From Brevundimonas bullata (GTDB lineage: Bacteria > Pseudomonadota > Alphaproteobacteria > Caulobacterales > Caulobacteraceae), in the NCBI RefSeq assembly GCF_003350205.1, contig NZ_QLLC01000005.1:1-64000 (forward strand): a DNA stretch of 64,000 bases, read 5' to 3'. The first letter of the stretch is position 1; each line of letters starts with the position of its first letter. The translations under genes and the position numbers were made by a program. Shown in pieces: positions 7,143 to 24,903 of the stretch. Below the pieces are notes generated by a model that searched no databases, was not told the origin of the DNA, and was given only the letters and a program-made list of their open reading frames with translations.

Positions 7143-7652
7143 GATTTCACTCGCGATTGACCGGTGAAGGCTGAACGGACCAGCAGCCACGAGCAACACA
7201 GAGGAGTTGCGCATTCTCCGCAAGAAAGTTGCGGAGAATCGACGTCGGACCCGCTGCCCCTCAGGATCGAAGCCAGCGCCAGAGACTGATTGCTCCTGCT
7301 TTGGCGACCTCTTACACAGTCCGGCGTCGGGCGCCGTCAGATACGGGCGCAACTTGAGCCGGGGTCCGTCAGTGGCGGAGGCGGCGTTTCGCCCTGAAGT
7401 CGCGGGCCTCTTCGCAGAGGATTCCTCGCCCGACCCCTCCGCCTTGCACCGGGACTCGCTTTGATTCATTGTCGGCCGTCGGCGCTTGCGTCGACAGGGG
7501 CCGGGAATCCCCTGTGCGAAGCTCAATCTTTACGACCGCGCCTCGACGCGCGGCGTCCGTCCGCTGGTGACCGCGGCGCACCCCTGTGTGCGGCCGGTCA
7601 TGGCGGGCGCGCTCTCGGATTCCTGCCTCCTGAAAACCGGCGGGAGGTCGCC
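7143..7652. other. Divergent intergenic region between luxR-type gene and sigma factor
   Basis: About 510 bases without a convincing gene. It holds the inverted repeat at 7213-7239 and a second perfect 7-bp hairpin (ACAGGGG at 7494-7500, CCCCTGT at 7509-7515, eight-base loop) about 140 bases before the sigma factor start. It presumably carries promoters in both directions. No other repeat or RNA gene was recognised. Confidence 0.5.
7213..7239. promoter_or_regulatory. Perfect 10-bp inverted repeat upstream of luxR-type gene
   Basis: Arms ATTCTCCGCA (7213-7222) and TGCGGAGAAT (7230-7239) are exact reverse complements separated by seven bases. It lies 71-97 bases upstream of the proposed start of the small LuxR-type gene. 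The inner half-sites CCGCAA and TTGCGG recur upstream of the second small LuxR-type gene at 18632-18650, suggesting a shared regulator. Confidence 0.6.
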
Positions 7653-8144
7653 TTGAGCGATGTGAAGGAGATGGATCCGGGCGCTGCGGCGAGCCTGAAT
7701 GGGCTCTACCGACGCTATTCGGGGTGGTTGGGAAGGCGGCTGCGCGGACGTGTGGGCGCCGATGAAGCCGCCGATGTGGTGCAGGAAACCTACCTTCGCC
7801 TGGCTCCCTATCTCATCGAAGACATTCGTCACCCCAAGGCTCTGCTTCTTCGCGTGGCCCTTAACCTCGTTCGTGATGAACGGCGTCGGATGGCCCTCCG
7901 GGACCGGGCGATGCAGGGAGCGATTCCTATGTGGGTCACAGCGGCCGACGCGCCTGTCGACCGGCTGCACCTCAAGCAGGTTCTCCTGACCATGCCGCCG
8001 CTGTATCGGGACGTCTTCGTCTTGAGCCGGTTTGACGGTATGACATATCCGGAGATTGCTCTGGCCCACGGGATCAGCCTGGCTACGGTTGAACGGCGGA
8101 TGGCCAAGGCTGTCGAGCACTGCATGGCCCAACTGGACGTCTAA
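7653..8144 (+). CDS. ECF RNA polymerase sigma factor, FecI type
   Basis: A 163-residue group IV sigma factor with region 2 (LYRRYSGWLGRRLRGRV, DEAADVVQETYLRL) and region 4 (LPPLYRDVF-like MPPLYRDVFVLSRFDGMTYPEIA, SLATVERRMAKAVEHC). FecI-type sigma factors direct transcription of a TonB receptor when a periplasmic FecR signals ligand. A TTG at 7653 is preferred because GGGAGG sits five bases upstream; an ATG at 7671 is the alternative. The fecR-like gene begins ten bases downstream, followed by the receptor and isopeptidase genes, so the likely job is to switch on the lasso-peptide uptake genes. Confidence 0.88.
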   Translation: MSDVKEMDPGAAASLNGLYRRYSGWLGRRLRGRVGADEAADVVQETYLRLAPYLIEDIRHPKALLLRVALNLVRDERRRMALRDRAMQGAIPMWVTAADAPVDRLHLKQVLLTMPPLYRDVFVLSRFDGMTYPEIALAHGISLATVERRMAKAVEHCMAQLDV

Positions 8145-8154
8145 GGCACGAACG

Positions 8155-9150
8155 ATGACTGCCGATAATGACCTGGACGTAAGACGACGCGAGGCCGCGT
8201 CGTGGTTCGCCACCCTCAACCAGAAGCGGGTGGCGGCTTCGGACATCACTGCTTTCAGTCAATGGCGCCGCACTCCTGCGAACGCTGAAGCCTATGCCCG
8301 GATAGAAACGATGTGGGAGGCGGCCGGGAGCCTCAAGGGCGACGCCGATATCGCCGCCTTGACTGCAGGGGCCCGCGCACGCGCCGACGCCTCGCGCAAA
8401 ATGCAGGGCCGCCTCGCCAAAGGCCTTATACCGATCGGCGCCTTGGCGGCCGTCGCCGCCGTGGTTGTCGGCGTGACACTGTGGTCTGCCCGTCCTCTGT
8501 CCTATGAAACCGGGCTGGGCGAACGGCGGATCGTCGTTCTGGCCGATGGGTCAAAGGTCACCCTGGACACCGAGTCTCGCATCACCGTCAGGCTCACCGG
8601 CAGTCGCCGTGCTGTGGAGCTGGCGAGCGGCCAGGCCTTCTTCGATGTGGAGGGCGATCCCGCCCGCCCCTTCGTTGTTCGCGCCGGCGCGACCGAAGTC
8701 ACCGCCGTGGGAACCCGGTTTGACGTCCGCCGCGCGGGCGGCGGCGCGCAGGTGACGCTCGTCGAAGGCAAGGTCGATGTCGTAGACCGGGGGCAAGCCA
8801 CGCCGCGGTGGTCCCTCGCCCCGGGCCAGCAGATTGTCACCGCTTCGCCGCGTCCAGCCGTCCGGTCGGTGGATGCGGCGTCGGAGACCAGCTGGACATC
8901 CGGCCGCCTCATCTTCGCCGGCGACACCGTCGAAGCCGCTGTGGCCGAGGTCAATCGCTACACCGCGTCCAAGGTCGTCCTGGATGCGCCCGCCATCGCC
9001 GATATCGCTGTCAGCGGCGCTTTCAACACGGGCGATGTGGAGGGCTTCGTGTCCGCGCTGACCGAGCTCTATCCGGTCGTCGCCAACCGCACGGCTTCCG
9101 GTCAGATCGTCATTCGTGACGCCCCCGCGAAAAATGCGAGCGTGCGCTGA
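8155..9150 (+). CDS. FecR-family anti-sigma / signal transducer
   Basis: A 331-residue membrane regulator. The N-terminal cytoplasmic DUF4880-like segment (REAASWFATLNQKRVAASDITAFSQW) is followed by one transmembrane helix near residues 90-110 (IPIGALAAVAAVVVGVTLW) and a periplasmic FecR domain (ERRIVVLADGSKVTLDTES, VTAVGTRFDVR). The C-terminal part resembles the STN-contacting region (VAEVNRYTASKVVLD). It would bind the neighbouring sigma factor and receive a signal from the STN domain of the TonB receptor encoded next. The start ATG at 8155 is ten bases after the sigma factor stop. Confidence 0.9.
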   Translation: MTADNDLDVRRREAASWFATLNQKRVAASDITAFSQWRRTPANAEAYARIETMWEAAGSLKGDADIAALTAGARARADASRKMQGRLAKGLIPIGALAAVAAVVVGVTLWSARPLSYETGLGERRIVVLADGSKVTLDTESRITVRLTGSRRAVELASGQAFFDVEGDPARPFVVRAGATEVTAVGTRFDVRRAGGGAQVTLVEGKVDVVDRGQATPRWSLAPGQQIVTASPRPAVRSVDAASETSWTSGRLIFAGDTVEAAVAEVNRYTASKVVLDAPAIADIAVSGAFNTGDVEGFVSALTELYPVVANRTASGQIVIRDAPAKNASVR

Positions 9151-9221: not shown

Positions 9222-12176
9222 ATGCGTATCGGTCTTTGTTCGTCTGCATTCGGAGCACTCGCTGTCGCGGCGGCAATGCCTGTCGTCGCCCTAGCGCAAT
9301 CCCCTGCCGTCCAGTTCCAGGTCCCGGCGGGCCCGCTAGAAACCACTCTTCCGCTGTTCGCGGCGCAGAGCGGCGAGCAAATCCTCTATTCCACAGACCT
9401 CGTAGCCGGCCGTCAGTCTCCGGGCGTCAGCGGCGCTCTGCGAACCGATCAGGCGCTGGCTGCGCTACTGCAGGGCACGGGCCTGCGCGCGCGGCGCACG
9501 AGTCCCAATACCCTGGTTGTCTACGATCCGGACGCAAGGGCGGACGCGACAGATGAGGCTGTCGAGATTGAGGATGTTGTCGTCACGGGAAGCCTCATCC
9601 GGGGGGTCGCCGACGGCCCCTCGCCAGTCGTTACGGTGACCCGGGACGAGATGGATCGGAATGGCCGCGCAACCGTGGCCCAACTGCTCGCGAGCTTGCC
9701 GCAGAATTTCGGCGGCACAGCGAACGAAGCCGCCCTGGGAAACGGCGGCGATCGCTCTGGTACGAACTCGACATACGCCAATGGCGTCAACCTACGCGGT
9801 CTGGGCAGTGACGCCACGCTCGTCCTCATCAATGGACGCAGGCTCGCGGGTACGGGGGCCAAAGGCGACTTCGTCGATGTCTCGACAATCCCCACCGCCG
9901 CAGTCGAGCGCGTCGATATCCTGTTGGACGGAGCCTCCGCCCTTTACGGCGCCGACGCTGTCGGCGGCGTCGTGAATATCATCCTCAGAGACGACTATGA
10001 TGGCGCCGAGACCCGGGTGAGGGTCGGAAACACCTCCGACGGCGCGAGCGGCGAATATCAGGTCGCTCAGGTTCTGGGACGGCAGTGGTCGACCGGCTCG
10101 GCGATGCTGACCTACGAATACTACGACCGTGACGCCCTGGCCGGATCCGAGCGTCGGCGAGCCGGCGATGCGGACCACCGCTGGCTCGGCGGAAGCGACC
10201 GACGCTCCTTCTACAGCAATCCCGGCAACATCGTCGTTCTTGACCCCGCGACCGGCAGTTACATTCCCCGGTACAGCATCCCCGATGGCCAGAATGGGGT
10301 GGGCCTGCTCCCGGCCGACTTCCGCCTCGGGCAGACCAATCTCGAGAACTTCAGGGCGACGAGCAACATCCTGCCCCGCCAGACTCGCCAAAGCGCCTTT
10401 GCCGCCGCCCGCCAGTCTTTCGGCGATCGCTTCGACATCAGTGGCGATGCTCGGTGGGGCATGCGCGAGTATGAAACGGTCTCGACGGCGATCAGCACCC
10501 TGCTGACGGTCACCCGAGCCAACCCGTATTTTGCGTCACCGACCGGAGCCAGCTCGCACACGATCGCCTATTCCTTTCAGGGCGAGATCGCGCCTCCCAA
10601 AGTCTTCGGCGAAGTCGAATCCCTCGGCGCGAGTCTGGGCGGGACGGCTGACCTTTTTGGCGACTGGCGGCTGGAGTCCTACGTCTCGTACAGCACCGAA
10701 GAGGCCCATACCGGTTCCGACGGCGCCTTGCAGTCGACGAATCTGCGTGAAGCCCTCGGCGCGGTTGCGGACAGCCCCGCCACCTCCTTCAGCACGGCGC
10801 GCGACGGCTTTTTCACCCCCTTCGGCAGCAGCGCGTCCAACAGCGCGACCATCCTGGACTTCATCAGCGCCGGCTACACCCGAAACCAAAGTCAGACCGG
10901 AAATCTCTCTGCCAATCTCCAGATCGGCGGCACAGTCATGACGCTGCCCGGAGGGCCGCTTCGGCTCGCAACGGGGCTGAACTTCCGTAGAGAAACCTTC
11001 GAACGTCAGGTCACCAACTTCTCCTCGGGCGCGGCTCCGACCGTCGGGGCTCGCACTCAAACCGAACGCGATGTCAGCGCTGCCTTTGCGGAGTTGCGTG
11101 TCCCCTTGTTCGGCGAGACCAACGCCCTTGCCGGCCTTCACCGGCTGGAACTGTCGTTGGCGGCGCGCTTCGAAGATTATGGTGACATCGGTCAGACGAC
11201 GAGCCCGAAAGTCGGCGTCCTGTGGGAGCCGACCGAGGGCCTCCTCCTCCGGGCGAACTACGGTCGCTCCTTCCGGGCCCCTGCCCTGCGCGAACTGAAC
11301 GACGCGGCGAGCGCCAGTCCATCCATTCTACCGCGTGGATCGCTGCAGATTCTGTCGATGATCCTCTACGGCGGCAATCCCAACCTCGAGCCCGAGGAAG
11401 CGGACACATGGACCGCGGGCTTTGAGATCAAGCCGACTGGGTTGCCCGGTTTGAGATTGGGCGCAAACGTCTTCCGGACCGACTTTGACAACCGCATCGG
11501 TCAACCCGCGCTCGAAAGTATTCTCACGGCCCTTTCCGACCCTTCGCTGGCCCCGTTTGTTCGCACCCTTGATCCGGTGAACAACGCCGCCGATCGCGTA
11601 GCGGTCCAGGCCATTCTCGATCTGCCGACCACAAACCTGCGCGACCTGTTCCCCGCGAACTCCTACGGGGCCATCGTGGACGCCCGTTATGTGAACACCG
11701 CCAAGGTTCAGGTGGAGGGCCTCGATCTCTCAGCCGGCTACGGCTTCAATCTCGCGGACAACGCCTTCGATCTCGACGTTAACCTGACCTGGCTGGAGCG
11801 TTTCGACGCCCAGCCAACACCAACCTCACCGACGGTGTCCCAGCTTGATCGCCCCAACTTCCCGGTCGGCCTGCGGGGACGAGCGTCGGCGAGCTGGTCC
11901 CGCGGCCCCTGGACGGTATCGCCCTCGCTCAACCACGTGGGGAATTATGCGGACCTCACCGGTCGTCGTATCGGCTCCTGGTCCACAGCCGACGTGTTGG
12001 TGCGCTTCGCACCGGCCGGGGGTTTGCTCGACGGAACCGCCGTGTCGCTGACCGTCCAGAATCTCTTTGACCGCGATCCGCCATTCTACGACGCCCCGGA
12101 GGGGATCGCCTACGACGCGGCCAACGCGAACGTGCTCGGCCGGTTCATCTCGCTGCAGCTGACCAAGGCCTGGTGA
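9222..12176 (+). CDS. TonB-dependent outer-membrane receptor with STN signalling domain
   Basis: A 984-residue receptor. It has a signal peptide (residues 1-25, ending VVALAQS), an STN (secretin/TonB N-terminal) domain at about 30-105 that in FecA-type systems talks to FecR, a TonB box-like stretch (EIEDVVVTG), a plug domain (VNLRGLGSDATLVLINGRRLA) and a C-terminal beta-barrel ending in aromatic ...LQLTKAW. A strong ribosome-binding site (GGGGGA) precedes the ATG. In isopeptidase-type lasso loci such receptors are proposed to import the lasso peptide or a related ligand. It overlaps the isopeptidase start by one base, indicating co-translation. Confidence 0.93.
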   Translation: MRIGLCSSAFGALAVAAAMPVVALAQSPAVQFQVPAGPLETTLPLFAAQSGEQILYSTDLVAGRQSPGVSGALRTDQALAALLQGTGLRARRTSPNTLVVYDPDARADATDEAVEIEDVVVTGSLIRGVADGPSPVVTVTRDEMDRNGRATVAQLLASLPQNFGGTANEAALGNGGDRSGTNSTYANGVNLRGLGSDATLVLINGRRLAGTGAKGDFVDVSTIPTAAVERVDILLDGASALYGADAVGGVVNIILRDDYDGAETRVRVGNTSDGASGEYQVAQVLGRQWSTGSAMLTYEYYDRDALAGSERRRAGDADHRWLGGSDRRSFYSNPGNIVVLDPATGSYIPRYSIPDGQNGVGLLPADFRLGQTNLENFRATSNILPRQTRQSAFAAARQSFGDRFDISGDARWGMREYETVSTAISTLLTVTRANPYFASPTGASSHTIAYSFQGEIAPPKVFGEVESLGASLGGTADLFGDWRLESYVSYSTEEAHTGSDGALQSTNLREALGAVADSPATSFSTARDGFFTPFGSSASNSATILDFISAGYTRNQSQTGNLSANLQIGGTVMTLPGGPLRLATGLNFRRETFERQVTNFSSGAAPTVGARTQTERDVSAAFAELRVPLFGETNALAGLHRLELSLAARFEDYGDIGQTTSPKVGVLWEPTEGLLLRANYGRSFRAPALRELNDAASASPSILPRGSLQILSMILYGGNPNLEPEEADTWTAGFEIKPTGLPGLRLGANVFRTDFDNRIGQPALESILTALSDPSLAPFVRTLDPVNNAADRVAVQAILDLPTTNLRDLFPANSYGAIVDARYVNTAKVQVEGLDLSAGYGFNLADNAFDLDVNLTWLERFDAQPTPTSPTVSQLDRPNFPVGLRGRASASWSRGPWTVSPSLNHVGNYADLTGRRIGSWSTADVLVRFAPAGGLLDGTAVSLTVQNLFDRDPPFYDAPEGIAYDAANANVLGRFISLQLTKAW

Positions 12177-14626
12177 TGCGACAGCTTCCGTTGATGCTCG
12201 CCCTCGCGGCAAGCCTGGCCGGAGTCTGTCCGGCGTCCGCTCAGACCCATCGGTTCGGAGTGGAGGATCTGATTAAACGGGAGGGTGTCGGTCAGGTCCG
12301 GGCCAGCCCCGATGGCCGCTGGGTGGTCGTGGAGCGACAGGCCGCCCACGACCAGGCTGCGACCTATCGCTTCCAGACCATGACCTACGCGCTGTTGACC
12401 GAACTGGAGATACACGCGGCGGACAAAACGTCGCCGCCGCGGCGGTTTGCAGCGGCGGGTCACGACGTCGGTTATCTCGCGGGCCCCTTCTCGCCGAGCG
12501 GCGCGCGGATGGTGGTGGTCAAGGTCACCGAGGCCACCTACCGACTGGGTATCCTCACCTTGGCGAGCGGCGCCGTTCAGTGGCTCTCGATCACGCCGGA
12601 ACAGAGCCAGTTCGGGCGCTCCATCGCCTGGAGATCAGAGACCGAAGTCGCCGTCATTGCTCGGCCGCTTGACGATTTCCCAATCCAGATGCGGGTCGGG
12701 TTTCAAACCCAGGACAGGATTGAAAGCCTTTGGCGCAACGCGGCCTCCGGTCATGCCTCGAGCGGCGTTTACATCCCCAGTGGCGCGACGCGCGATGCTC
12801 GCGCTCAAGCCCTGCCCTCAAGCCTTATCCTCGTCAACGCCCAGACCGGCAGCCAGCGGGTTCTGGCGCAGGGCGAATGGTTCGATATGGCGCTGTCGCC
12901 GGATGGACGCCGTCTCGCCGCCCTTCGCAACGCCGAGGACATCCAGCCCACCCCGGATCGACCCCTCCTGGTCGGGGATCCCATTCGTCGCCGGCGTCTC
13001 GCGGTGATTGATCTCGACAGCGGCGCTGTGGCCGATCCGCTGCCGGGCGAGGACCTCGCCATGTATCTGATGTCCTGGTCCCCGGATTCCTCGCGCCTGC
13101 TCGCTTACGGCCGCCCCTCCGTATCGGCGGACTTTGATGAGGGCGGTCGCTACTGGCTCATCGGTCGCGACGGACGGGCAACAAGGCTCGACACGGGCAC
13201 GGACCGGCCCTGGCTGCAGAGGACCTGGGACGGCGTCGCCATCCCTCTGGGGAGCTGGGACGGTACGCGGCCCCTGATACAGGTCGGCGAAACTGATCAG
13301 AACCGCCATTGGCGACGGGATGACGGCGCCCGCTTCCCGGTCAAGGAATCCGGTGAACGGATCGCCCGCTTCGAGGGCCAGACTATGGTTCAGCGCCGCG
13401 ACGGGCTCTATGCCCTCGATGGGGCCAAGGCTGTTTCGGGTCGGCTGGTGGACCTGGGGCAGATGTCCGACGGCGCCAATCCCGCGCAATGGAACCCCAA
13501 TCCCGTTCTTTTTGGGCAGGGATCGGTTATTGACGGGGCTTGTATCCACACCGCGGCGCCGTCGCCTCCGGTCTGTGTTTCTCCCATTCCTGAGGGTGAG
13601 CGTCCTCTAGCGGCGCTCCCCTCCGGGATCGTGACGACCGGCCTGGACGAACGCGGCGTCACCACCGTACGCCTTCATACATTGGGTGAGGTCCAGACGC
13701 TTACGACCGTCAACGCCGCGTGGCGTGACATCGACTGGGGTCGCGTCGAGCCCGTCGCTCACTTGGGACCGGAGGGTCAGTCCCTGACGAGCTGGCTCCT
13801 GCTTCCTCCAAACATGGCGGTTGGAGAGCGCCCGCCTGTCGTGGTGCAGATCTATCCCGGTGCAACTCTGTCGGCGCCGCCGGCGACGATCCTGCCCGGG
13901 TCCAGGAATCCGCAAAACAATCCATCGGTGATCGCCGGGGCAGGCTATGCCGTTCTCATCGCCAATCTGCCGCACCCAGCGTCCGGACCTCGAATGGACG
14001 ATCTCGCTGAGCGCATCTTCGCCATCGTTGACGAAGCCGGCCGTCGGGGACTGATCGATCCGGACCGGGTCGCCGTGACCGGCCACAGTTACGGCGCCTA
14101 TTCGAGCCTGCGCGCTGCGACCCAGTCGGACCGCTTCAAGGCAGTGATCGCCACCAGCGGGTATCCGGAGCTGACGCGCTCGATGGAACTGCCGCCCTTC
14201 TTCCGCGTGTCCCCGGACGAGGGCGTTCCGGTCGGACAGATGGCCGGATGGGGCGAGACGGGCCAAGGGCGGTTCGGCGCCTTCTCAACCTCCCCGGAGA
14301 ACTACGTCGCCCAGAGCCCTCTCTTCAGTGTCGAACGTCTGAGAAGCCCTACCCTTCTCGCTGAGGGCGATCAGGAGAACGCCCGCATGGGCGCGCTGTT
14401 CAGCGCACTCTATCGACTGAACCGCGAAGCCGCCTTGGTGACCTACTATGGCGAGGGTCATGTCTATGAGAGCCCCGGCAATGTGAGGGACCTACACGCG
14501 CGCATCCTGGATTGGCTGGCTCGATATCTCGGTCCGCCAGCGCGCCTCGAGCCGCTGCGTCCAGCGCCGCGCCCAGACCTCGAGCACCCCGAGCAGCAAG
14601 GGCCGGTTGGCGCCGGGACTCCATAA
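12176..14626 (+). CDS. Lasso peptide isopeptidase (prolyl-oligopeptidase family S9)
   Basis: 816 residues: signal-like N-terminus (LALAASLAGVCPASAQ), a beta-propeller region, and a C-terminal alpha/beta-hydrolase domain with a visible Ser-Asp-His triad: S638 in GHSYGAY, D732 in AEGDQENAR and H762 in GEGHVYES. In AtxE-like enzymes this fold cleaves the isopeptide bond of the matching lasso peptide. The assignment rests on context: directly after the sigma-FecR-receptor set and convergent with lasso B/C genes. Its ATG overlaps the receptor stop. The apparent signal peptide would place it in the periplasm, whereas AtxE-type enzymes are usually described as cytoplasmic, so its location deserves attention. 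The last 135 bases overlap the end of the cyclase gene on the other strand. Confidence 0.82.
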   Translation: MRQLPLMLALAASLAGVCPASAQTHRFGVEDLIKREGVGQVRASPDGRWVVVERQAAHDQAATYRFQTMTYALLTELEIHAADKTSPPRRFAAAGHDVGYLAGPFSPSGARMVVVKVTEATYRLGILTLASGAVQWLSITPEQSQFGRSIAWRSETEVAVIARPLDDFPIQMRVGFQTQDRIESLWRNAASGHASSGVYIPSGATRDARAQALPSSLILVNAQTGSQRVLAQGEWFDMALSPDGRRLAALRNAEDIQPTPDRPLLVGDPIRRRRLAVIDLDSGAVADPLPGEDLAMYLMSWSPDSSRLLAYGRPSVSADFDEGGRYWLIGRDGRATRLDTGTDRPWLQRTWDGVAIPLGSWDGTRPLIQVGETDQNRHWRRDDGARFPVKESGERIARFEGQTMVQRRDGLYALDGAKAVSGRLVDLGQMSDGANPAQWNPNPVLFGQGSVIDGACIHTAAPSPPVCVSPIPEGERPLAALPSGIVTTGLDERGVTTVRLHTLGEVQTLTTVNAAWRDIDWGRVEPVAHLGPEGQSLTSWLLLPPNMAVGERPPVVVQIYPGATLSAPPATILPGSRNPQNNPSVIAGAGYAVLIANLPHPASGPRMDDLAERIFAIVDEAGRRGLIDPDRVAVTGHSYGAYSSLRAATQSDRFKAVIATSGYPELTRSMELPPFFRVSPDEGVPVGQMAGWGETGQGRFGAFSTSPENYVAQSPLFSVERLRSPTLLAEGDQENARMGALFSALYRLNREAALVTYYGEGHVYESPGNVRDLHARILDWLARYLGPPARLEPLRPAPRPDLEHPEQQGPVGAGTP

Positions 14627-16258
14627 GAGACGTTCAGGCTCCAGATCCCGACCGAGCTCCACCCGATCGAACAATCGATGCTCGACCATCAGCCCGTCCA
14701 TCAGAAAGGGACGCAGGTCGGGAAGGCTGCTCTGGACGACGTGTCCGTAGAACCGGCCCAGATCACCCTTGTCACGACGCTGGGCGATGGACGGCGGTAA
14801 ACGGCCCGCGAAGGCTTTGCGCGCAAGGCCGCGGTCTCTCGGACCCAACGTCAGGCGATCGGCGGGGATCGCGAGGCAATGCTCCATCACGGGCTGACTG
14901 AGCAGGGGATGGATCAGGTCGGCGGCCCTCGCGCGCAGACAATCGCTCCAGAAAAGCTGGCAGTTGGCGAGACGGTGCACCTGTCCATACTTCCCCGGCG
15001 GAAGATCTGCGGCATCCCCCAGCCACGGATGGAGCGGCGCGGCCGAAGGCTTTCGGGGCGGAGGCCAAAGGGCCAGACGCGCAAGCGTCCAGGCGGAATG
15101 GCGGGTCCACCTGGCCATTTCGCCCCAGTAGCGCGGGCGGAACCCGGCCAGCCCTTCGCGGCGCCGGCGGTCCACCACGATGCGGGGCTCTGGCGCCTGA
15201 TAGAAGACTGCGTCCCCGCCCTGCCCCGTCACGAGGGCGGTGGCGCGCCCCTGCCGCAGGCGTCGGGCGACGTCGCGATCATAGGCCACGTCGACGCCAT
15301 GCAGTGCGGGGCGAATGCCTTCACCCAGCGGGCGCAGAAGCGCTTCGGTGATGGCTGCAACCGGCTTTCTGGCCGCCTCGAGGCGCAGTCCTGATTTCTC
15401 GGCCGCCGCCAGTGCGTAAGCTCGTTCATCACCCTCGTTCCAATCAGCGAAATAGTTGACGAAGCGCGCCCGCGGGCCCAGCCCCGCGGCCGCGACGCTT
15501 CCCGAAACGATGGCCGAATCGAGCCCGCCGGAAATCTCTCCCTGGATGCGCTCATGGTGTGCGAGAGAGACGGCCACCACCTGATCCACGAGGGCGCGAA
15601 GTGCGTCAGGGCTGTCGTCAAACGCGGTCCCGACAAAGCGGGACGGACGCCAGAGGGCATAGCGCTCCATGGTGTCGCCGAGAAGAACCATATCTCCGGG
15701 CGTGACGACGTTCAGGCCTCGGAGCGGAGGTCGGTCGCTGAGCAGTCCGGGATCGTTCGACAGCGTCGCCAATACCTCCCAATCGATCGCGATCTCCGGT
15801 GGCAGGAGAGCATCCGCAACCTCTGGAGGCTGATCGGACGCCAGTCTCAGCCCCCCGCTGCGCCACCACACGCAATCGATGGCGCCGGTTGGGTCTCGAA
15901 TAAGAACGAGACGGCTTTCGTCGTCGCGCCAAGCCAGAATATAGCGTCCCCAACCGGATCGGACGACCTCCGATCCCAGGCTCCCTGCTGTTCGGCTCGT
16001 GCCAATGATCGAGGACAAGGATCGGTCGCTCGGTCGCCACGTTCCGATCTGGATGTGGCGGCGATGGACCTGCCGCACGGCCACGGTCGCGTTGGGTCCC
16101 AGGAAGACTTCGATGTGGTCAACAACAAGAGCCGATCGCCAACCCGCTGCCAGAAGGTCCCGGCGGACTTGATCGAGGCGATCCCGATCGGCTGGCGTCG
16201 CGTGGCTGCTGTCGATCAGAAGGTAAGCCCGCGCATCGACAGCGGGCGTCATCGGCAC
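14492..16258 (-). CDS. Lasso peptide cyclase (asparagine synthetase-like, C protein)
   Basis: A 588-residue asparagine-synthetase homologue that adenylates the ring Glu/Asp of the core and closes the isopeptide bond to the N-terminus. The ATP-binding SGGLDS motif is at residues 243-248, preceded by a degenerate N-terminal glutaminase-like domain without the catalytic N-terminal Cys2, as usual for lasso cyclases. The C-terminal part (LLGVLEVWARRW) matches the family's usual end. The start at 16258 overlaps the B gene by ten bases, so B and C are probably translated together. The 3' end runs 135 bases into the isopeptidase gene on the opposite strand. Confidence 0.9.
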   Translation of the reverse strand: MPMTPAVDARAYLLIDSSHATPADRDRLDQVRRDLLAAGWRSALVVDHIEVFLGPNATVAVRQVHRRHIQIGTWRPSDRSLSSIIGTSRTAGSLGSEVVRSGWGRYILAWRDDESRLVLIRDPTGAIDCVWWRSGGLRLASDQPPEVADALLPPEIAIDWEVLATLSNDPGLLSDRPPLRGLNVVTPGDMVLLGDTMERYALWRPSRFVGTAFDDSPDALRALVDQVVAVSLAHHERIQGEISGGLDSAIVSGSVAAAGLGPRARFVNYFADWNEGDERAYALAAAEKSGLRLEAARKPVAAITEALLRPLGEGIRPALHGVDVAYDRDVARRLRQGRATALVTGQGGDAVFYQAPEPRIVVDRRRREGLAGFRPRYWGEMARWTRHSAWTLARLALWPPPRKPSAAPLHPWLGDAADLPPGKYGQVHRLANCQLFWSDCLRARAADLIHPLLSQPVMEHCLAIPADRLTLGPRDRGLARKAFAGRLPPSIAQRRDKGDLGRFYGHVVQSSLPDLRPFLMDGLMVEHRLFDRVELGRDLEPERLLWSPGANRPLLLGVLEVWARRWTQRLEARWRTEISSQPIQDARV

Positions 16259-16872
16259 AGCAGGGGCTGGTAGGCAGACAGGCGTTCGACATCATCATTC
16301 AGGCAGGTGTCACCCACCTGAACCCAACAATGCGCCATGAATGGAAAGAGTCTCACCCCGAACACCCAGTCGGCCCGGAGACCCTGCCGATGCAGGGCCT
16401 GAACGAGCAAAGCCGACCGAACGAGGCATTCACCCTCGATCGGGAGCCAGGGCTGCAGTCGCCAGAAAGCCGTCGCAGCGCGCTGCACATCCGGCTCGGC
16501 CGCAGGTCGTAGCGGGGGTTCAGAGAAATAGGCGGTGATCCCGGACCCGGCCGGGATCTTCCGCACCGCGAGCGCGGCGGCGAGACCCGCGTGGATATCG
16601 CGCCATGATACGGCGGCGGGGTCGTGGATAACGGTCCGCGCGGGTTTCGCCGGTAGCGCTCGCACCAACGGTGGCGCTTGGGCTTGAAGCAGTCCCGCCG
16701 CCTGGAGGGTGTCTCGCGTCGAACCGCCCAGGACTTCAGCTCCGCCGTCAGATCGGCGCACGACGGTCTCACCGCCGCTTGGCAGACAGAAATAGTTGTC
16801 GGCCTCGAGATCCAGGATCACGAGCGCCGTGTCGATGACGGCCGCATGCACGCCGGTCTTCAGAAACATCAT
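16249..16872 (-). CDS. Lasso leader-binding and leader-peptidase protein (fused B1-B2)
   Basis: 207 residues combining a PqqD-like leader-recognition half (about 1-75) and a transglutaminase-like cysteine protease half (about 125-207) with triad C149 (GECLVRSALL), H181 (FMAHCWVQ) and D193 (LNDDVERL). It would bind the precursor leader and cut after the Thr-x leader end. The ATG at 16872 was chosen because homology begins there (FLKTGVHAAVIDTALVILDL); a second ATG follows at 16869. It lies 53 bases downstream of the precursor stop, across a strong hairpin. The fused B form is typical of proteobacterial lasso loci. Confidence 0.9.
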   Translation of the reverse strand: MMFLKTGVHAAVIDTALVILDLEADNYFCLPSGGETVVRRSDGGAEVLGGSTRDTLQAAGLLQAQAPPLVRALPAKPARTVIHDPAAVSWRDIHAGLAAALAVRKIPAGSGITAYFSEPPLRPAAEPDVQRAATAFWRLQPWLPIEGECLVRSALLVQALHRQGLRADWVFGVRLFPFMAHCWVQVGDTCLNDDVERLSAYQPLLCR

Positions 16873-16890
16873 GAGAGATCGCCCTGATGA

Positions 16891-16919
16891 GGACGCCGGC
16901 CCCTGACGGGCCGACGTCC
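16891..16919. promoter_or_regulatory. Hairpin between precursor A and gene B (probable attenuator)
   Basis: Arms GGACG-C-CGGCCC (16891-16902) and GGGCCG-A-CGTCC (16908-16919) pair over 11 of 12 positions around a five-base loop. It sits between the precursor stop and the B start, with no long T-run. The likely role is partial termination or RNA stabilisation so that precursor mRNA exceeds enzyme mRNA, as proposed for other A-B gaps in lasso loci. Confidence 0.6.
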
Positions 16920-16925
16920 CTTCGT

Positions 16926-17159
16926 TCAGTGGAAACGCACGCCGGTCATGGTCCAACGCTGGACCGGGATCAGCTCGAACTCGCCGTCCGGCGAGTCCGC
17001 CCGAGTCTGGTCCGCGGCGGAGCCGAGCCGGAGCAGGCCCGATCCGGCCTCGTCGTAATACTGGATCGGATTCAGTTCGGGCTTCTCGACGCCGACTTCG
17101 GCGCGGGTGTGATGGGCGGCCGACCCCAGGGAGATCAGACGCGTCAGGTTCTTCAGCAT
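16926..17159 (-). CDS. Lasso peptide precursor with two tandem cores
   Basis: 77 residues. Start fixed by AGGAGG nine bases before the ATG. Residues 11-19 (LGSAAHHTR) form a leader end with Thr at -2, followed by core 1 from A20 with Glu at position 9 (E28): AEVGVEKPELNPIQYYDEA. Residues 45-53 (LGSAADQTR) repeat the leader end and are followed by core 2 from A54 with Glu at position 9 (E62): ADSPDGEFELIPVQRWTM. The two halves align with a constant offset of 34 residues and no gaps (L-G-S-A-A, T-R-A, E-L-x-P-[IV]-Q). Both cores could form nine-residue rings (Ala1 to Glu9). Core 1 resembles the remembered pattern of caulonodin VI. Cleavage at the second site would leave core 1 with a long tail needing trimming. 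A decayed second unit is the main alternative. Confidence 0.88.
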   Translation of the reverse strand: MLKNLTRLISLGSAAHHTRAEVGVEKPELNPIQYYDEAGSGLLRLGSAADQTRADSPDGEFELIPVQRWTMTGVRFH

Positions 17160-17220
17160 GGTGATTGCCTCCTATGCCGGGCGGGATTGCCCGACGCCGT
17201 CAGGAGGCGCGTACGCCGTC

Positions 17221-17249: not shown

Positions 17250-17846
17250 TCACACAGACTGACGCATCACCTTCTCCAGGGCCGAAGAAAGGGCGAAGCG
17301 ACCCTCATGATACTCGTAGAGCGCAGCCGCCAACTCCCCGCTCCCGCCCTCTGACCGGAGGCGTTCAATTTCGAGCGCGATGTCCAATCCAGTATTCTGC
17401 AGGACCGCTTCAACCCTGCGGATCGGTCTGAGCTGCGCAGAGACCCGCCGATAGGCTTCGAAGACGGCGCTGTTCCCCCCATGCTGCGCGAGCTGATCGA
17501 ACACGAGCTCGACCCGCAGGACCGGATCCGTCGGCGGGTCCGCCGTCGGCGCTTGGGGCGCAAAGCCCTCTTCGGAGCCCCACCGCAGGAACTTGTGATG
17601 AAGCTCGTAAAGGCCAATGATATCAGAGGCGGTGAGGCTCGGGGCGAAGTAGCCTCGTCCTGGCCGATGCTCGATAATGCCCTCGCCAGCGAGGTGGGCC
17701 AGCGCCTCGCGTACAGGCGTTGGACTGAGACCGAGTTCGTTCGCAAGACTGGTTGCGACCAGAGGACGCCCCCAACCGAACCGACCCGCTGCGGCATAAC
17801 CAGCAAGGGCGCTGTGGGCGACCGCGAACTGATCGCGTTCGCGCAT
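17250..17846 (-). CDS. GntR-family transcriptional regulator
   Basis: 198 residues. The N-terminal winged helix-turn-helix is typical of the FadR subgroup (VATSLANELGLSPTPVREALAHLAGEGIIEHRPGRGYF, residues about 30-70), followed by a mostly helical FCD-like effector domain. It would sense a small ligand and bind a palindromic operator. It lies just upstream of the lasso precursor, in the same direction, with a 28-base palindrome between them, so control of the lasso biosynthetic genes is likely. The ATG at 17846 is the first start that includes the whole HTH. Confidence 0.85.
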   Translation of the reverse strand: MRERDQFAVAHSALAGYAAAGRFGWGRPLVATSLANELGLSPTPVREALAHLAGEGIIEHRPGRGYFAPSLTASDIIGLYELHHKFLRWGSEEGFAPQAPTADPPTDPVLRVELVFDQLAQHGGNSAVFEAYRRVSAQLRPIRRVEAVLQNTGLDIALEIERLRSEGGSGELAAALYEYHEGRFALSSALEKVMRQSV

Positions 17847-19023: not shown

Positions 19024-19662
19024 TTGCTCGATCTCGCCCTCGTCCTCGCCCTTTCCGCCCAGTGCGCACCCGGGGTCTCGCCGCAGACCCTGGCCGCGAT
19101 CGCCCATACGGAGAGCCGCTTCAATCCCCTGGCGATCGGCGTCAATCGCGGCGCCGCCGTGCGTCAGCCCAGGACCCGCGAGGAAGCGGCACGGGTCGCG
19201 CGCCGCCTGATCGCCTCGGGCGCCAACATCGATCTCGGTCTCGCTCAGATCAACTCCGGCAATCTCGGATGGCTGCGTCTGAGTGTAGAGGACGCCTTCG
19301 ACCCCTGCCGCAACCTGACCGCGGCAGGGACCGTGCTGCGCGCCGGCTTCGATCCTGCATCGACGGCCTTTGACCGCCAACAGGCCCTGCGCGTGGCCCT
19401 GTCCCGATACAACACCGGTCATCCCGATCGCGGCTTTCGCAACGGCTATGTCGCGCGCGTCGAAGCGTCCGCGGCGCGCCTGGGCCTGGCCGTCTCCGCG
19501 CCGCCGCTCACCGAAGCCGCATCAGGCTCGCTCCCCGATCAGGTGGCGCCAGACCCCGTCGCGCCACCCGCCGCCTGGGACGTGTTCGCGCACGCCACCG
19601 CCAGCGCCGTCGTCCTCTTCGCCCCCGCCTCACAGACCCAGACCTGGAGCGTCAACCCGTGA
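19024..19662 (+). CDS. VirB1-like lytic transglycosylase
   Basis: 212 residues with an SLT-type domain: catalytic Glu in AIAHTESRFNPLAIGVN near residue 30, GLAQINSGNL and later RYNTGH motifs. In type IV secretion it opens peptidoglycan locally so the channel can assemble. It starts at a TTG with a weak ribosome-binding site (CGGAG), and the first residues form a hydrophobic signal-like segment. It is the first gene of a tightly overlapping operon that runs to the LPD7 gene; its stop overlaps the next start. Confidence 0.88.
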   Translation: MLDLALVLALSAQCAPGVSPQTLAAIAHTESRFNPLAIGVNRGAAVRQPRTREEAARVARRLIASGANIDLGLAQINSGNLGWLRLSVEDAFDPCRNLTAAGTVLRAGFDPASTAFDRQQALRVALSRYNTGHPDRGFRNGYVARVEASAARLGLAVSAPPLTEAASGSLPDQVAPDPVAPPAAWDVFAHATASAVVLFAPASQTQTWSVNP

Positions 19663-19958
19663 CCCTGTCCCCCATTCGACGCCGCCAATGCGCGGTCGGA
19701 GCGATCGCCCTGGCGACCACCCTGATGTCGGTGCAGCCCGCCTTCGCCCAGGCCAATGTCGAGGGCCTGCTGCAGAATGTCGTCGACATGCTGACCGGCA
19801 ACACGGCCAGGCTGTTGGCCATCCTGGCGGTCGTCATCGTCGGCATCCTGTGGATGTTCGGCCTGTTCGATCTGCGGCGCGCCGCCATCGTCATTCTCGG
19901 CATCGTCGTGGTCTTCGGCGCCGCCGAGATCGTCGGCCTGATCACGGGCGGCGCCTGA
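19659..19958 (+). CDS. VirB2/TrbC-like conjugative pilin
   Basis: 99 residues: a signal peptide (AIALATTLMSVQPAFAQA) and two hydrophobic helices (LLAILAVVIVGILWMFGLF and AAIVILGIVVVFGAAEIVGLI) separated by a short polar loop with DLRR. This is the plan of VirB2/TrbC pilin precursors, the main subunit of the conjugative pilus. It starts at GTG and overlaps the genes on both sides by a few bases. Confidence 0.85.
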   Translation: MTLSPIRRRQCAVGAIALATTLMSVQPAFAQANVEGLLQNVVDMLTGNTARLLAILAVVIVGILWMFGLFDLRRAAIVILGIVVVFGAAEIVGLITGGA

Positions 19959-20137
19959 TGGCCCGGGCCGACGCCTGTCTGATCGTCGCGGGGATCGCCG
20001 GCGGGCTTGCGCTGACGCTGATGCTCGGCGTCCGTCTGATCTCGCCGGCACGCTACGCCCAGGCTCTGGGCGGTGGTCTGGTCGGTCTCGCCGTGGCGAA
20101 AGCCGCCCTGGCCCTGAGCGGGGCGGACCATGGCTGA
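19958..20137 (+). CDS. Small membrane protein in the type IV secretion operon
   Basis: 59 residues with two hydrophobic segments (LIVAGIAGGLALTLMLG and ALGGGLVGLAVAKAALAL). Its ATG overlaps the pilin stop, and its end overlaps the VirB3 gene by eight bases, so it is a genuine operon member. I do not recognise the family. It could be an extra inner-membrane partner of VirB3, or a pilin-processing or chaperone protein. Confidence 0.6.
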   Translation: MARADACLIVAGIAGGLALTLMLGVRLISPARYAQALGGGLVGLAVAKAALALSGADHG

Positions 20138-20465
20138 GGAACGACTGATCGAAGAGCCCCTGTTCCTAGCCTGCACCCGGCCGGCGATGATCCTGGGCGT
20201 GCCCATGGAGGCCATGGGCGTCAACGTCATGATCTCGGGCCTGGCCTTTCTCGTCGGCGGCAGCCTGCTCTATCTGCTGATCGCGCCGGCCCTGCATCTG
20301 GTCTTTCGCGCGATCTGCAAGGTGGACCACAACGCCTTCAGGCTTCTGCTGGTCTTCGTCGACACCAAGGGCCGGTCCCGCAACGGCGCCCTGTGGGGCG
20401 GCAGCTCGGCGACACCCCTCCCCCTTGTCCGGCGTTACAGCGCAAGGGAGCTGCTCCGTGGCTGA
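20130..20465 (+). CDS. VirB3/TrbD-like inner-membrane protein
   Basis: 111 residues: a conserved start (ERLIEEPLFLACTRPAMILGVPMEA), two adjacent membrane helices (VMISGLAFLVGGSLLYLLIAPALHLVF) and a C-terminal cytoplasmic part with CKVDHNAFRLLLVFVDTK. This matches VirB3, which partners VirB4 in pilus assembly. It overlaps the VirB4 gene by eight bases. Confidence 0.87.
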   Translation: MAEERLIEEPLFLACTRPAMILGVPMEAMGVNVMISGLAFLVGGSLLYLLIAPALHLVFRAICKVDHNAFRLLLVFVDTKGRSRNGALWGGSSATPLPLVRRYSARELLRG

Positions 20466-22833
20466 GCTCCGTCTCTCGCCGTCGCGCCTGCGCAGGGAGG
20501 GCGACGCCCTGGCCGGCCTGCCCTATGCGCGCCACGCCTCGGACCACATCGTCACGCTCGATAGCGGGGCGCTGATGGTTGCCTTCCAACTTCAGGGCGC
20601 GGCATTCGAGACCGCCGACCCGCGCGATCTGAACGACTGGCACGTCAAGCTCAACCAGACCTGGCGCAACCTGGCTGACGATCGGTTGGCGGTCTGGCAC
20701 CACATCGTCCGGCGCGAGGTCCAGCCCGAGGTCATGGGCGGGTTCCGCTCCGACTTCGCACGCGATCTGAGCCAGGCCTACGAAGCGCGGCTCGGAGGCC
20801 GGCGGCTGTTCGTCAACGAACTCTTTGTCAGCCTGGTGCTCCATCCCGGCCGTGATCCCGGCGATCGCGCTGCGGCGCTCATGCGTCGCCTGCAGACAGC
20901 CCGCCGTCAGGACACGGAGGTCGCCCCCGAACAGATCAAGCGGCTCGAGGACGCCGCGCGCGATCTTGAGCAGTATCTCGGCCGCTATTCGCCGCGCCGC
21001 CTTGGCCTGTACCAACACGGAGACATCTGGTGCTCCGAACCGATGGAGCTGGTTCGGCTCGTCCTCACCGGCCGGCCGGGACGCGTCCCCATCGTCTACG
21101 GCCATCTCGGATCCGCGGTTCATACGGTGAGGGTCATCTTCGGACGCGAAAGCCTGGAGCTTCGGGACGTCGACGCAGGCCGTTACGCCGGCGTTCTCGC
21201 CATCAAGGAATATCCGGCCTCGACCCGGCCCGGACTGTGGAACCCGCTGCTGAGCGCCTCCTTCGGGTTCGTCATGACCCAGTCCTTCGCCTTCCTGTCC
21301 AAGGCGGCCGGGCGATCGGTGATGGAGCGCAAGCAGAACCAGATGGTCTCCGCGCGTGACCGCGCCGCTTCCCAGATCGACGGCCTTTCGGACGCGCTGG
21401 ACGATCTGGTCAGCAACCGGTTCGTGCTCGGCGAACACCAGGCGTCCGTCCTGGTCTACGGCGACACGCCCGCCGCCCTGGCCGACCACCTTTCGAAGGC
21501 GCGAGCGCATCTGGCTGACTCCGGCCTGGTCGTCGCCCGCGAGGACCTCGGCCTCGAGGCCGCTTTCTGGTCCCAGTTCCCTGGCGGCTTCGCGCGGCGC
21601 ACGCGTCCGGCCGCGATCACCTCCCGCAACTTCGCCGCTCTCGCGCCTTTCCACGCCTATCCCATCGGAAAGCCACAGGGCAATCACTGGGGATCGGCGG
21701 TGGCGACGCTGCGCACCACAGCCGGATCCCCTTTCTACTTCAACTTCCACGTCGGCGATCTCGGCCACACCTTCATCTGCGGCCCCTCCGGGTCGGGCAA
21801 GACGGTCGTCCAGAACTTCATGCTGGCGCAGCTGGAGCGGTTCGACGCCCAGCAGCTGTTCATCGACAAAGACCGGGGCGCCGAGATCTTCGTTCGGGCC
21901 TGCGGCGGCACCTATCTGGCTCTGCGCGACGGCGTGCCCACGGGGTTCGCGCCCTTCAAGGCATTGGAGCCGTCACCCGCCAATCGCGCCTTCCTGAGCC
22001 GACTGGTGCGGACCCTGGTCGCCCGACCGAACGAGACCCTGTCGGTCCCGGAAGCACGCGCCATCGACGAAGCCGTCGCTGCGCTTGAGGCCCTCCCGCG
22101 CGAGCGACGCTCGCTTTCGGCCCTGCGCAGCCTGCTCGGTCAATCGGACGTGGGCGGCGTGGGGGCGCGGCTGGAACGCTGGGTCCGGGGCGGGCCGCTC
22201 GGCTGGGCTCTGGACGGCGACTACGACGTCCTGTCGCTCGACGCCCGCTTCGCCGGCTTCGACATGACCGATGTGCTGGACCACCCCGAGGTCCGCACGC
22301 CGATGATGCTCTACCTCTTTCACCGGATCGCCCAGCGGGTGGACGGGCGCCGGCTTGTTCTCGACATCGACGAGTTCTGGAAGGTGCTGGGCGACGCCGC
22401 CTTCACCGATCTGGCCCAGGACGGCCTGAAGACCTGGCGCAAACAGAACGCCCTGATGGTCTTCGGCACCCAGTCCCCGGCCGACGCGCTGCGCTCGCCG
22501 ATCGCCCACACCATCCTCGAACAGTGCGCGACCAAGATCTTCCTGCCGAACGCCCACGGTCAGGCCCGCGACTATGTCGAAGGCTTCGGCCTGAGCGACG
22601 AGGAGTTCCGACTGATCCGGGACGAGCTGACGCCGGAGTCTCATCGCTTCCTGGTCAAACAGGGTCACGACAGCGTGGTCGTGGAGCTTGACCTCAAGGG
22701 GCTGGATGACGCGCTGGCCGTCCTGTCCGGACGATCCGAAACCGTCGCCCTTCTCGACCGGCTGAGAGCCGAGACCGGGGACGACTACGCCGACTGGCGG
22801 GGCCCCTTCCATTCCCAGAGGAGACTGACATGA
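20458..22833 (+). CDS. VirB4/TrbE-like conjugative ATPase
   Basis: 791 residues. The N-terminal CagE/TrbE domain is followed by an AAA-type ATPase with Walker A GPSGSGKT at 442-449 and a Walker B region (RLVLDIDEFWKVL) in the C-terminal half. VirB4 powers pilus assembly and substrate transfer at the inner membrane. A GTG at 20458 is preferred because homology begins there and it gives the usual overlap with VirB3; an ATG 11 codons upstream is in frame but adds unrelated residues. Confidence 0.93.
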   Translation: MAELRLSPSRLRREGDALAGLPYARHASDHIVTLDSGALMVAFQLQGAAFETADPRDLNDWHVKLNQTWRNLADDRLAVWHHIVRREVQPEVMGGFRSDFARDLSQAYEARLGGRRLFVNELFVSLVLHPGRDPGDRAAALMRRLQTARRQDTEVAPEQIKRLEDAARDLEQYLGRYSPRRLGLYQHGDIWCSEPMELVRLVLTGRPGRVPIVYGHLGSAVHTVRVIFGRESLELRDVDAGRYAGVLAIKEYPASTRPGLWNPLLSASFGFVMTQSFAFLSKAAGRSVMERKQNQMVSARDRAASQIDGLSDALDDLVSNRFVLGEHQASVLVYGDTPAALADHLSKARAHLADSGLVVAREDLGLEAAFWSQFPGGFARRTRPAAITSRNFAALAPFHAYPIGKPQGNHWGSAVATLRTTAGSPFYFNFHVGDLGHTFICGPSGSGKTVVQNFMLAQLERFDAQQLFIDKDRGAEIFVRACGGTYLALRDGVPTGFAPFKALEPSPANRAFLSRLVRTLVARPNETLSVPEARAIDEAVAALEALPRERRSLSALRSLLGQSDVGGVGARLERWVRGGPLGWALDGDYDVLSLDARFAGFDMTDVLDHPEVRTPMMLYLFHRIAQRVDGRRLVLDIDEFWKVLGDAAFTDLAQDGLKTWRKQNALMVFGTQSPADALRSPIAHTILEQCATKIFLPNAHGQARDYVEGFGLSDEEFRLIRDELTPESHRFLVKQGHDSVVVELDLKGLDDALAVLSGRSETVALLDRLRAETGDDYADWRGPFHSQRRLT

Positions 22834-23534
22834 GACGCTCCATCCTTTCGATCGCCGTCGCCCTGGCCGCGGTGACCGCTGTTCCGGCCCACGCCCAGCA
22901 GGTTGTTTACGACCCAACGTCCTTCGCCCAGATGGTCAAGGATGCGCGCACTGCCATCGAACAGCTCGACAGCCTGAAGGCCCAGGTCCAGCAGGGCCAG
23001 GAGTTGTTCGCCAGCCTCAACGACCTGTCCAACGTCAATGCGATCGCTGAACGGCTGGGCCTCCCCGAGATCCGCAATCCCCTGCCCGACATGGCCACCC
23101 TGCGGTCGGCCGCCGACGGGGACCTGTCGGCGCTCGGCGAACTGGCCGAGCGGGCCGACGCGATCCGCCGCGGGACCCGCGTCTACACCCCGGCTGCGCC
23201 GTCCGCCGCCGCGGACGCCCTGGAACGGTCAGGCGCGCGGACCGCCCGTGATCTGGCGATCGGCGAGGCCGTCGACCGGTCGGCGACCGATCGTCTTGAA
23301 GGCCTGGAGACGCTGCGTCGCGCCCTCGACACCGCGCCGAACGCGCGGGCCGTGATGGACCTGAACGCCCGGCTCGCGGCGGAACAGGCCCTGATCCAGA
23401 ACGAACAGGTCCGGCTGCAGGGCCTGGCCCTGACCCAGGCCGCCGAAGCCCGTCTCGAGGAACAGCGGGCGCGGGAGCGGATCGCCGCGGAACGGTCGGC
23501 CCGCATGGACGCCTACCGTCAGGCCTTTCAGTGA
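22830..23534 (+). CDS. VirB5/TrbJ-like protein
   Basis: 234 residues: a signal peptide (SIAVALAAVTAVPAHAQ) then long helical, coiled-coil-prone sequence starting VVYDPTSFAQMVKDARTAIEQLDSLKAQVQQGQELF, the typical N-terminal motif of TrbJ/VirB5, a minor component at the pilus tip. The C-terminal end is rich in Glu, Arg and Ala (RLEEQRARERIAAERSARM). It overlaps VirB4 and the small lipoprotein gene. Confidence 0.87.
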   Translation: MRRSILSIAVALAAVTAVPAHAQQVVYDPTSFAQMVKDARTAIEQLDSLKAQVQQGQELFASLNDLSNVNAIAERLGLPEIRNPLPDMATLRSAADGDLSALGELAERADAIRRGTRVYTPAAPSAAADALERSGARTARDLAIGEAVDRSATDRLEGLETLRRALDTAPNARAVMDLNARLAAEQALIQNEQVRLQGLALTQAAEARLEEQRARERIAAERSARMDAYRQAFQ

Positions 23535-23743
23535 AAGCCGCCCTGGTCCTGCTCGGCCTGCTGGCGGGTTGCGGCGAGCCGGAAGCGCCCAGGGGTGAGC
23601 CGCGCCTGGATCGCGCCGCGCTCGAGGCGGCCATCGTGGACTGCGAACGCGGCGCCCGCCGGCACGGCTGTGACGCCGCCCAGGCGCGTCTCGCCGAGGT
23701 CCGGCGGGCCGACCGCATGGCCGCCTACCGGCAGGGTTTCTAG
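23531..23743 (+). CDS. Small lipoprotein, entry-exclusion type (TrbK/EexN-like)
   Basis: 70 residues starting at GTG. A short hydrophobic leader ends in a lipobox (LLAGCG), so the mature protein is a lipoprotein beginning at Cys18. Position between VirB5 and VirB6 is where entry-exclusion lipoproteins lie in related systems. The C-terminal MAAYRQGF echoes the end of VirB5 (MDAYRQAF), suggesting that a short stretch was duplicated. A role in blocking redundant conjugation is inference from position. Confidence 0.65.
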   Translation: MKAALVLLGLLAGCGEPEAPRGEPRLDRAALEAAIVDCERGARRHGCDAAQARLAEVRRADRMAAYRQGF

Positions 23744-23752
23744 GAGGTCGCC

Positions 23753-24676: not shown

Positions 24677-24903
24677 TGCCCTTTCTTCGAATATCGTCCC
24701 GCGTCGTGTCGATCGCCCTGGCGGTCCAGGCCGTGTCCGCCTGCGCCACCTTTCGAACCGCCGATCCGCCGGTCTGCGACGGCCGCCATCGTCGACCCGC
24801 CAATCCCTACGGTTCGATCCTCTCGCCGGCGGCGCCGCACACGCCCGCGCCCGCAGCCGACGCGGCTTCCTCCATCGACCCTGGCGCAGGAGGCTGCGCA
24901 TGA
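24676..24903 (+). CDS. VirB7/TrbH-like lipoprotein
   Basis: 75 residues with a signal peptide ending in the lipobox VSAC (cleavage before Cys near residue 23), followed by a short Pro/Ala-rich mature part. Small outer-membrane lipoproteins at this position usually stabilise VirB9. AGGAG lies upstream and the ATG overlaps the VirB6 stop. The last bases overlap VirB8. Confidence 0.65.
   Translation: MPFLRISSRVVSIALAVQAVSACATFRTADPPVCDGRHRRPANPYGSILSPAAPHTPAPAADAASSIDPGAGGCA

Follow-up and report, generated by a model that had tools for sequence, protein, structure and literature searches.

A predicted lasso peptide precursor with two tandem leader-core units in Brevundimonas bullata

The usual view of lasso peptides is that one chain carries one leader and one core. 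Astexin-type precursors conform to it (locus L112 of the survey described below presumably holds that of astexin-1): a single leader of the form L-x-x-[LF]-G-x-A-x-x-x-T-R precedes a single core whose ring is closed at Asp/Glu9 or 8, and the surrounding cluster encodes the leader peptidase (B), the cyclase (C), an isopeptidase, a TonB-dependent receptor, a sigma/anti-sigma pair and a GntR-family regulator. Cyanobactin precursors set a repeated core between repeated recognition sequences; their products are cyclised head to tail by a different protease and are not threaded. Microviridins bear side-chain rings on cores that stand under one leader. Multi-core graspetides such as microviridin AMdnA place several cores on one chain, where they are served by one modifying enzyme (PMC5934393, in the part of its text that is available). 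Lasso clusters in which several precursors each have a gene of their own, those of caulosegnins I-III and others, are described in the accessible sections of PMC7549694 and PMC13352647, one set of B and C giving rise to several lassos. The accessible text of PMC9266682 also makes the gene order of isopeptidase-type lasso clusters nearly constant, and it is the same at the locus described here. No natural precursor bearing several lasso cores was found in the open-access literature, including the available portions of PMC13352647 (a review of June 2026), PMC13003496, PMC7549694, PMC8498205, PMC9266682, PMC10368454, PMC10885120, PMC7533575, PMC12670498, PMC13381572, PMC10349150 and PMC5067487; subscription papers lie mostly outside that scope, and an earlier report is possible. 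The remark of a preceding sequence-only reading of this DNA, that characterised lasso precursors carry one core, thus meets no counterexample in the open-access texts in so far as they are available.

The window (the whole stretch of DNA analysed, 64,000 nucleotides of B. bullata contig NZ_QLLC01000005.1) contains a lasso cluster of the known isopeptidase type with an unusual precursor inside it. The precursor gene, A, occupies 16926..17159(-) and encodes 77 amino acids plus a stop; its ATG lies 8 nt 3' of a ribosome-binding site, AGGAGG, at 17168..17173(-). The residues of the ORF (17159-16926(-)) run in the order MLKNLTRLISLGSAAHHTR-AEVGVEKPELNPIQYYDEAGSG-LLRLGSAADQTR-ADSPDGEFELIPVQRWTMTGVRFH, hyphens added. 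Leader 1 (residues 1-19, 17103..17159(-)) ends in LGSAAHHTR and has Leu-12, Gly-8 and Thr-2 at columns that are conserved among homologues. It is followed by positions 1-16 of core 1 (17055..17102(-)), which the conservation of homologues marks out as a predicted ring from Ala1 to Glu9, a loop LNPIQ and, at Tyr15/Tyr16, the likely plug. A linker and internal leader 2 come next (residues 36-53, 17001..17054(-)), the leader 2 motif LLRLGSAADQTR being residues 42-53 (17001-17036(-)) and presenting Leu-12, Gly-8 and Thr-2 just as leader 1 does. The 24-residue core 2 (16929..17000(-)) completes the chain with another predicted Ala1-Glu9 ring, a loop LIPVQ and Trp16. The leader ends LGSAAHHTR and LGSAADQTR, each with Thr at -2, and the Ala1, Glu9 and L-x-P-[IV]-Q of each unit can all be read in the ORF as the sequence-only reading had described them.

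Both units of A have what is expected of a lasso precursor, namely Thr-2, a small residue at core position 1 and Asp/Glu at positions 7-9. A departs from characterised lasso precursors in holding two complete units where one core per chain is the rule; its relatives hold two or three. Its leaders and cluster are those of the astexin type, whereas astexin-type chains have one leader and one core. Like the caulosegnin-type clusters, in so far as the available accounts describe them, it pairs several cores with one B and C set, but the units are fused rather than encoded separately, so that the middle segment is both tail and leader. It resembles the multi-core graspetides in its several cores per chain and one modifying enzyme, and differs in giving every core a leader of its own, with proteolysis a prerequisite of closure.

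The best ungapped repeat within A spans 32 residues (8-39 against 42-73, offset 34), with 14/32 identities and a BLOSUM62 score of 54; none of 5000 shuffles of the residues of A reaches that score, the highest attaining 35, which disposes of a chance repeat. An internal duplication had been noted before as 34 residues long and ungapped: the duplication stands, but 34 is the spacing of the copies and not their length. At the DNA level the two units are alike at 55/96 bases and at 14/32 third codon positions. The duplication must therefore be old, and this is why a repeat finder at its default seed, as expected, reports no DNA-level repeat in the precursor gene. An assembly duplication was also considered, and is ruled out by the divergent DNA together with the presence of two units in independent genomes.

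The features that define an isopeptidase-type cluster are all present: the GntR gene before A, the isopeptidase, the TonB-dependent receptor and the sigma/anti-sigma pair. B (16249..16872(-)) is matched by the leader peptidase model NF033537 at 76.2 bits (cut-off 33) and by PF13471; Cys149, His181 and Asp193/Asp194, which we take to be its catalytic residues, are invariant in an alignment of 3 sequences. Its N-terminal stretch has the right place and size for an RRE, with no match to the Pfam RRE model, and an AlphaFold model built from three input sequences (pLDDT 55) is too poor to show one. A PDB sequence match to B, with an E value of 0.68, was set aside as meaningless. C (14492..16258(-)), a lasso cyclase of the asparagine-synthetase type, scores 67 bits with PF00733 (cut-off 21); its subfamily is divergent, since the specific model NF033535 gives 30.7 bits, under a cut-off of 525, and a PDB sequence search with C returned no relative. 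The lasso isopeptidase-like S9 hydrolase (12173..14626(+)) is identified by PF00326 and by similarity to AtxE2 (5txc, E 8e-10), whose chains 5txc/5txe align with its residues from about 495 to 787; it scores 85.7 bits with the curated model NF033523, under a cut-off of 400. Its gene and that of C run in opposite directions and overlap at their 3' ends by 135 bases (14492-14626). Further along lie the TonB-dependent receptor with an N-terminal STN domain (9222..12176(+); PF00593, PF07715 and PF07660), the FecR anti-sigma regulator (8056..9150(+); PF04773, 80.9 bits) and an ECF-like sigma factor (7461..8144(+)), for which PF08281 gives 57.6 bits on 7662-8141 and the region 2 model scores slightly below its cut-off. 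The GntR-family regulator (17250..17846(-); PF00392, 38 bits) is upstream of the precursor. Between A and B a stem-loop at 16890..16920(-) is indicated by folding energy: the segment 16873-16928(-) folds at -29.7 kcal/mol (z -3.47), as low a value being found in 1/200 shuffles. The structure may serve to keep precursor in excess of B. Conjugation genes (SLT, TrbC, VirB3, CagE/TrbE/VirB, TrbL, TrbI, a T2SSE ATPase and a T4SS coupling protein) occupy 19024-30390(+). Because this block begins about 1.2 kb past the GntR gene, the lasso cluster may lie beside or within a mobile element.

Profile and single-sequence searches of 5.8 billion proteins provide 61 homologues of A, named 'hypothetical' or 'uncharacterized' protein at source and for the most part nameless. 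Of these, 51 have a pair of leader motifs with an Asp/Glu9 behind both, 2 have the pair with one Asp/Glu9, and 8 are fragments or variants with one motif. The full two-unit layout is available for 48 proteins, among them P0048, a truncated three-unit protein. Conservation of Thr-2, of Gly, of the hydrophobic residue before it and of the small residue two after it follows by construction from the search pattern and is not evidence. Arg-1 is another matter: the pattern allowed 12 letters there, and Arg is found in 48/48 of both units. In units 1 and 2, respectively, Ala1 is kept in 46/48 and 45/48, Glu9 in 48/48 and 47/48 (Lys replaces it in core 2 of P0019), Leu10 in 43/48 and 42/48, and Pro12 in 39/48 and 47/48. 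Position 16 is Tyr in 48/48 of unit 1, and Trp (38/47) or Tyr (9/47) in unit 2. Ring positions 3-7 are mostly variable (1.4-3.0 bits in unit 1, 1.2-2.8 in unit 2, against 4.2-4.3 for Glu9). Leader 1 has Leu-12 in 47/48 proteins, while the internal leader has Val (19), Ile (13) or Ala (11) at that place; since -12/-11 are less strict than in leader 1, the internal leader may bind the RRE more weakly.

Estimates of dN/dS, pooled within groups of genes of equal length and from pairs that are not independent, are 0.37 for ring 1, 0.06 for core-1 positions 10-16, 0.27 for the linker and leader 2, and 0.17 for ring 2; the values for leader 1 (0.70) and for the end of core 2 (0.50) are uninformative, dS being low (0.20 and 0.13). 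Conservation of a single core in relatives had been named beforehand as the outcome that would tell against two products. The opposite is seen: lasso-forming residues are kept in both units, and the alignment of relatives bears out purifying selection on both, nonsynonymous change being held down in ring 1 and in ring 2. Such conservation of two units is not what one would expect of a simple follower or spacer. Position along the chain is likewise respected, the nearest unit (<85% identity) in another protein being at the same position for 45/50 first cores and 45/50 last cores, and at a different position for 5/50 of each. That entire units have been gained and lost is suggested by the middle cores of the two three-unit proteins compared, both of which have their closest counterpart in core 1 of P0051, a two-unit protein. 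In one protein of the three-unit type (P0047, 86 aa) core 2 comes directly after Tyr16 of core 1, the intervening linker and leader being missing by deletion or through an assembly fault. Taken with these comparisons, the placing of A as a real and conserved member of a family of multi-unit lasso precursors is strongly supported. Three-unit relatives, and a sister clade that keeps units of this kind as separate genes, add to the support for two products beyond what the sequence-only reading had to go on.

It is accordingly tempting to read A as two leader-core units from which B likely cuts at each Thr-Arg, each core then becoming an Ala1-Glu9 lasso of its own, and we regard this as highly probable; the two mature lassos are a prediction. 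B would cut after each Thr-Arg, and each freed core would close Ala1 to Glu9 and thread as a separate lasso peptide. The internal cleavage would have two effects, freeing the Ala1 amine of core 2 and setting the C-terminus of core 1. Formation of the macrolactam requires a free amine at residue 1, and core 2 can therefore close only after its separation from core 1, which settles part of the order on chemical grounds. Cyclisation of core 1 could come before or after the internal cut: an earlier closure is possible because fusions of astexin-1 and of pandonodin with C-terminal cargo do mature, as stated in the available parts of PMC13352647, PMC8498205 and PMC13003496, although extra tail residues, according to a review, usually reduce the yield of lasso. 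After the cut, core 1 would have 25 residues behind its ring (7 loop and plug residues, the linker and the spent leader 2), and this 34-residue piece would probably be trimmed towards Tyr16 by host carboxypeptidases, by analogy with the truncated lasso tails that the accessible sections of the same review record. As for the internal leader, 16-20 residues separate Tyr16 of core 1 from Ala1 of core 2 in the two-unit proteins, which is long enough for a leader, given that single-unit leaders in the family have 14-29 residues (median 20). A loop of the form L-x-P-x-x is common to the units, and through it a single cognate isopeptidase and a single receptor may be enough for all the products. Isopeptidases are narrow and loop-reading in the accessible text of PMC9266682; one isopeptidase for all products is possible, we infer, because the units mostly share Leu10-x-Pro12.

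The conservation of two units bears directly on readings with a single product. If core 2 were the sole product, unit 1 and leader 2 would together amount to a long leader or spacer, B cutting at the second Thr-Arg only. The lengths would suit such a scheme: the last core has 18-25 residues in 47/48 proteins (the 48th is truncated), comparable with the 15-26 of single-unit cores, and it is core 1 that carries a long extension. A spacer, however, needs none of the Glu9 (48/48), Tyr16 (48/48) and Ala1 (46/48) that core 1 retains, nor would it call for a dN/dS of 0.06 over core-1 positions 10-16, and this reading is quite unlikely. That core 1 should be the sole product, with unit 2 an unprocessed follower or a degenerate duplicate, is barely credible: lasso tails can bear cargo, according to the available portions of the literature, but the second unit keeps Arg-1 in 48/48, Glu9 in 47/48, Pro12 in 47/48 and Trp/Tyr16 in 47/47, its ring has a dN/dS of 0.17, and a unit of this kind is a gene of its own in the sister clade.

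Another possibility grants both cores and concerns the tail of the first. Mature core 1 might keep the spent leader 2 as a 34-residue, long-tailed lasso that binds the RRE and regulates B. Conservation of the linker and leader 2 (dN/dS 0.27; Gly20 in 45/48 of the two-unit proteins) would agree with this, and so would the existence of a long-tailed lasso, pandonodin, 33 amino acids in all as given in the parts of its description that are accessible. Yet the need of core 2 for a leader already explains why leader 2 is conserved, and host carboxypeptidases are known, from the review sections available, to truncate lasso tails; a regulatory long-tailed product is thus improbable. Two units, each with its own cut and its own lasso, remain the preferred reading of A.

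The multi-unit arrangement recurs in other genomes. A pattern scan for B in one genome per species across 84,980 species, which reaches close relatives only, yielded two loci: L001, in a Caulobacteraceae MAG, with a B that is 84% identical and a two-unit precursor, and L002, in a Brevundimonas MAG, whose precursor has three units and 114 aa. With A itself as the query, 13/299 genomes of the family gave a match, and 11 of these (the window's own counted) have a two- or three-unit precursor. Of the rest, G174 has a pair of adjacent single-unit genes; the weak hit in G172 (E 0.008) was set aside, since none of the window's lasso proteins has a match in the surrounding 16.5 kb that was retrieved. 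The layout GntR-A-B-C facing an isopeptidase and a TonB-dependent receptor recurs in 11/12 multi-unit loci inspected (L001, L002 and L022-L031); at L026 no isopeptidase or receptor match was found within the 18 kb fetched. At L024, a two-unit cluster, the cyclase match is split between two reading frames and leaves about 110 residues uncovered, so that the gene looks broken.

A lasso-type B2 is present in at least 176/390 genomes of the family, and precursors were read in 123 distinct clusters from 105 genomes. Of these clusters 21 are multi-unit (14 two-unit, 7 three-unit), 94 have single-unit genes only and 8 lack the pattern; the multi-unit share of 21/123 is biased upwards, because the precursor search contributed 11 of these clusters, the window's own included. 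Each of the 21 is from a different genome, and 20 of these genomes belong to the window's genus. The leader pattern demanded Thr-2 and a Gly preceded by a hydrophobic residue, with a small residue two places on from the Gly. Six of the eight patternless clusters were inspected: L100 has a two-unit precursor gene upstream of B with the frame broken within leader 1, L065 an overlooked precursor of one unit, L158 one unit that resembles a precursor and has Ile at -2, and L177 ends at a contig end, while inspection of L161 and L171 revealed no precursor. The single-unit set comprises 109 distinct candidates, at least 2 of which (ORFs in L091 and L138) are likely false and were retained. A class-wide search for B2 matched 33/385 genomes and added 29 loci of about 3 kb (L035-L063); the leader pattern finds a candidate precursor in 1/29 of these (L040), which permits no inference on tandem units outside the family.

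A tree quickly built from 127 B proteins, of which 118 are different (17/144 loci without a tblastn match to the window's B are omitted), with SH-aLRT in place of bootstrap support and with no root inferred, puts all 24 multi-unit rows in one group of 27 (support 93), the other 3 rows being L100, L171 and L177, clusters without a detected precursor. The multi-unit label changes once on the tree if clusters without a detected precursor are omitted, and four times if they are scored as not multi-unit. The sister rows L033, L089 and L090 (L033 and L090 being one cluster) join this group in one of 30 with support of 98, and have two adjacent single-unit genes, separated by 12 bases in L033. The cores of these paired genes share A1, E9 and an I-P loop, the first gene having Phe16 and the second Trp16. 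Pro12 is found in 6/109 single-unit candidates, and 4 of these 6 come from these two-gene clusters. By core similarity both sister genes are nearest to last cores, so that position 16 is all that pairs the first gene with the first unit. The simplest origin of the arrangement, and a likely one, is the fusion of two adjacent single-unit genes.

A family of two- and three-unit precursors raises the questions in which order the RRE-peptidase makes its cuts (N to C, or random), what load of C-terminal cargo the cyclase tolerates and what minimum length an internal leader needs. There is perhaps an even chance that these proteins are lasso polyproteins in a fuller sense: modular chains, two or three units long, whose internal leaders double as the tails of the preceding cores and whose rings are unlocked in turn by one RRE-peptidase, the products forming a matched set (similar loops, distinct rings and plugs) that a single receptor and a single isopeptidase read, and the units being gained, lost and exchanged as modules within the genus. 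Such a set would bear on the unexplained biological role of isopeptidase-type lassos, one receptor and one isopeptidase serving several products. The chains are also a natural template by which a single gene might be made to yield several interlocked peptides. Genome mining on the assumption of a single core would overlook these peptides or cut them wrongly. The same genome has a second, divergent lasso cluster (L034, contig C56) with an ordinary 38-residue, single-unit precursor, whose leader has the layout of the internal leader of A; the predicted first residue of its core is Leu.
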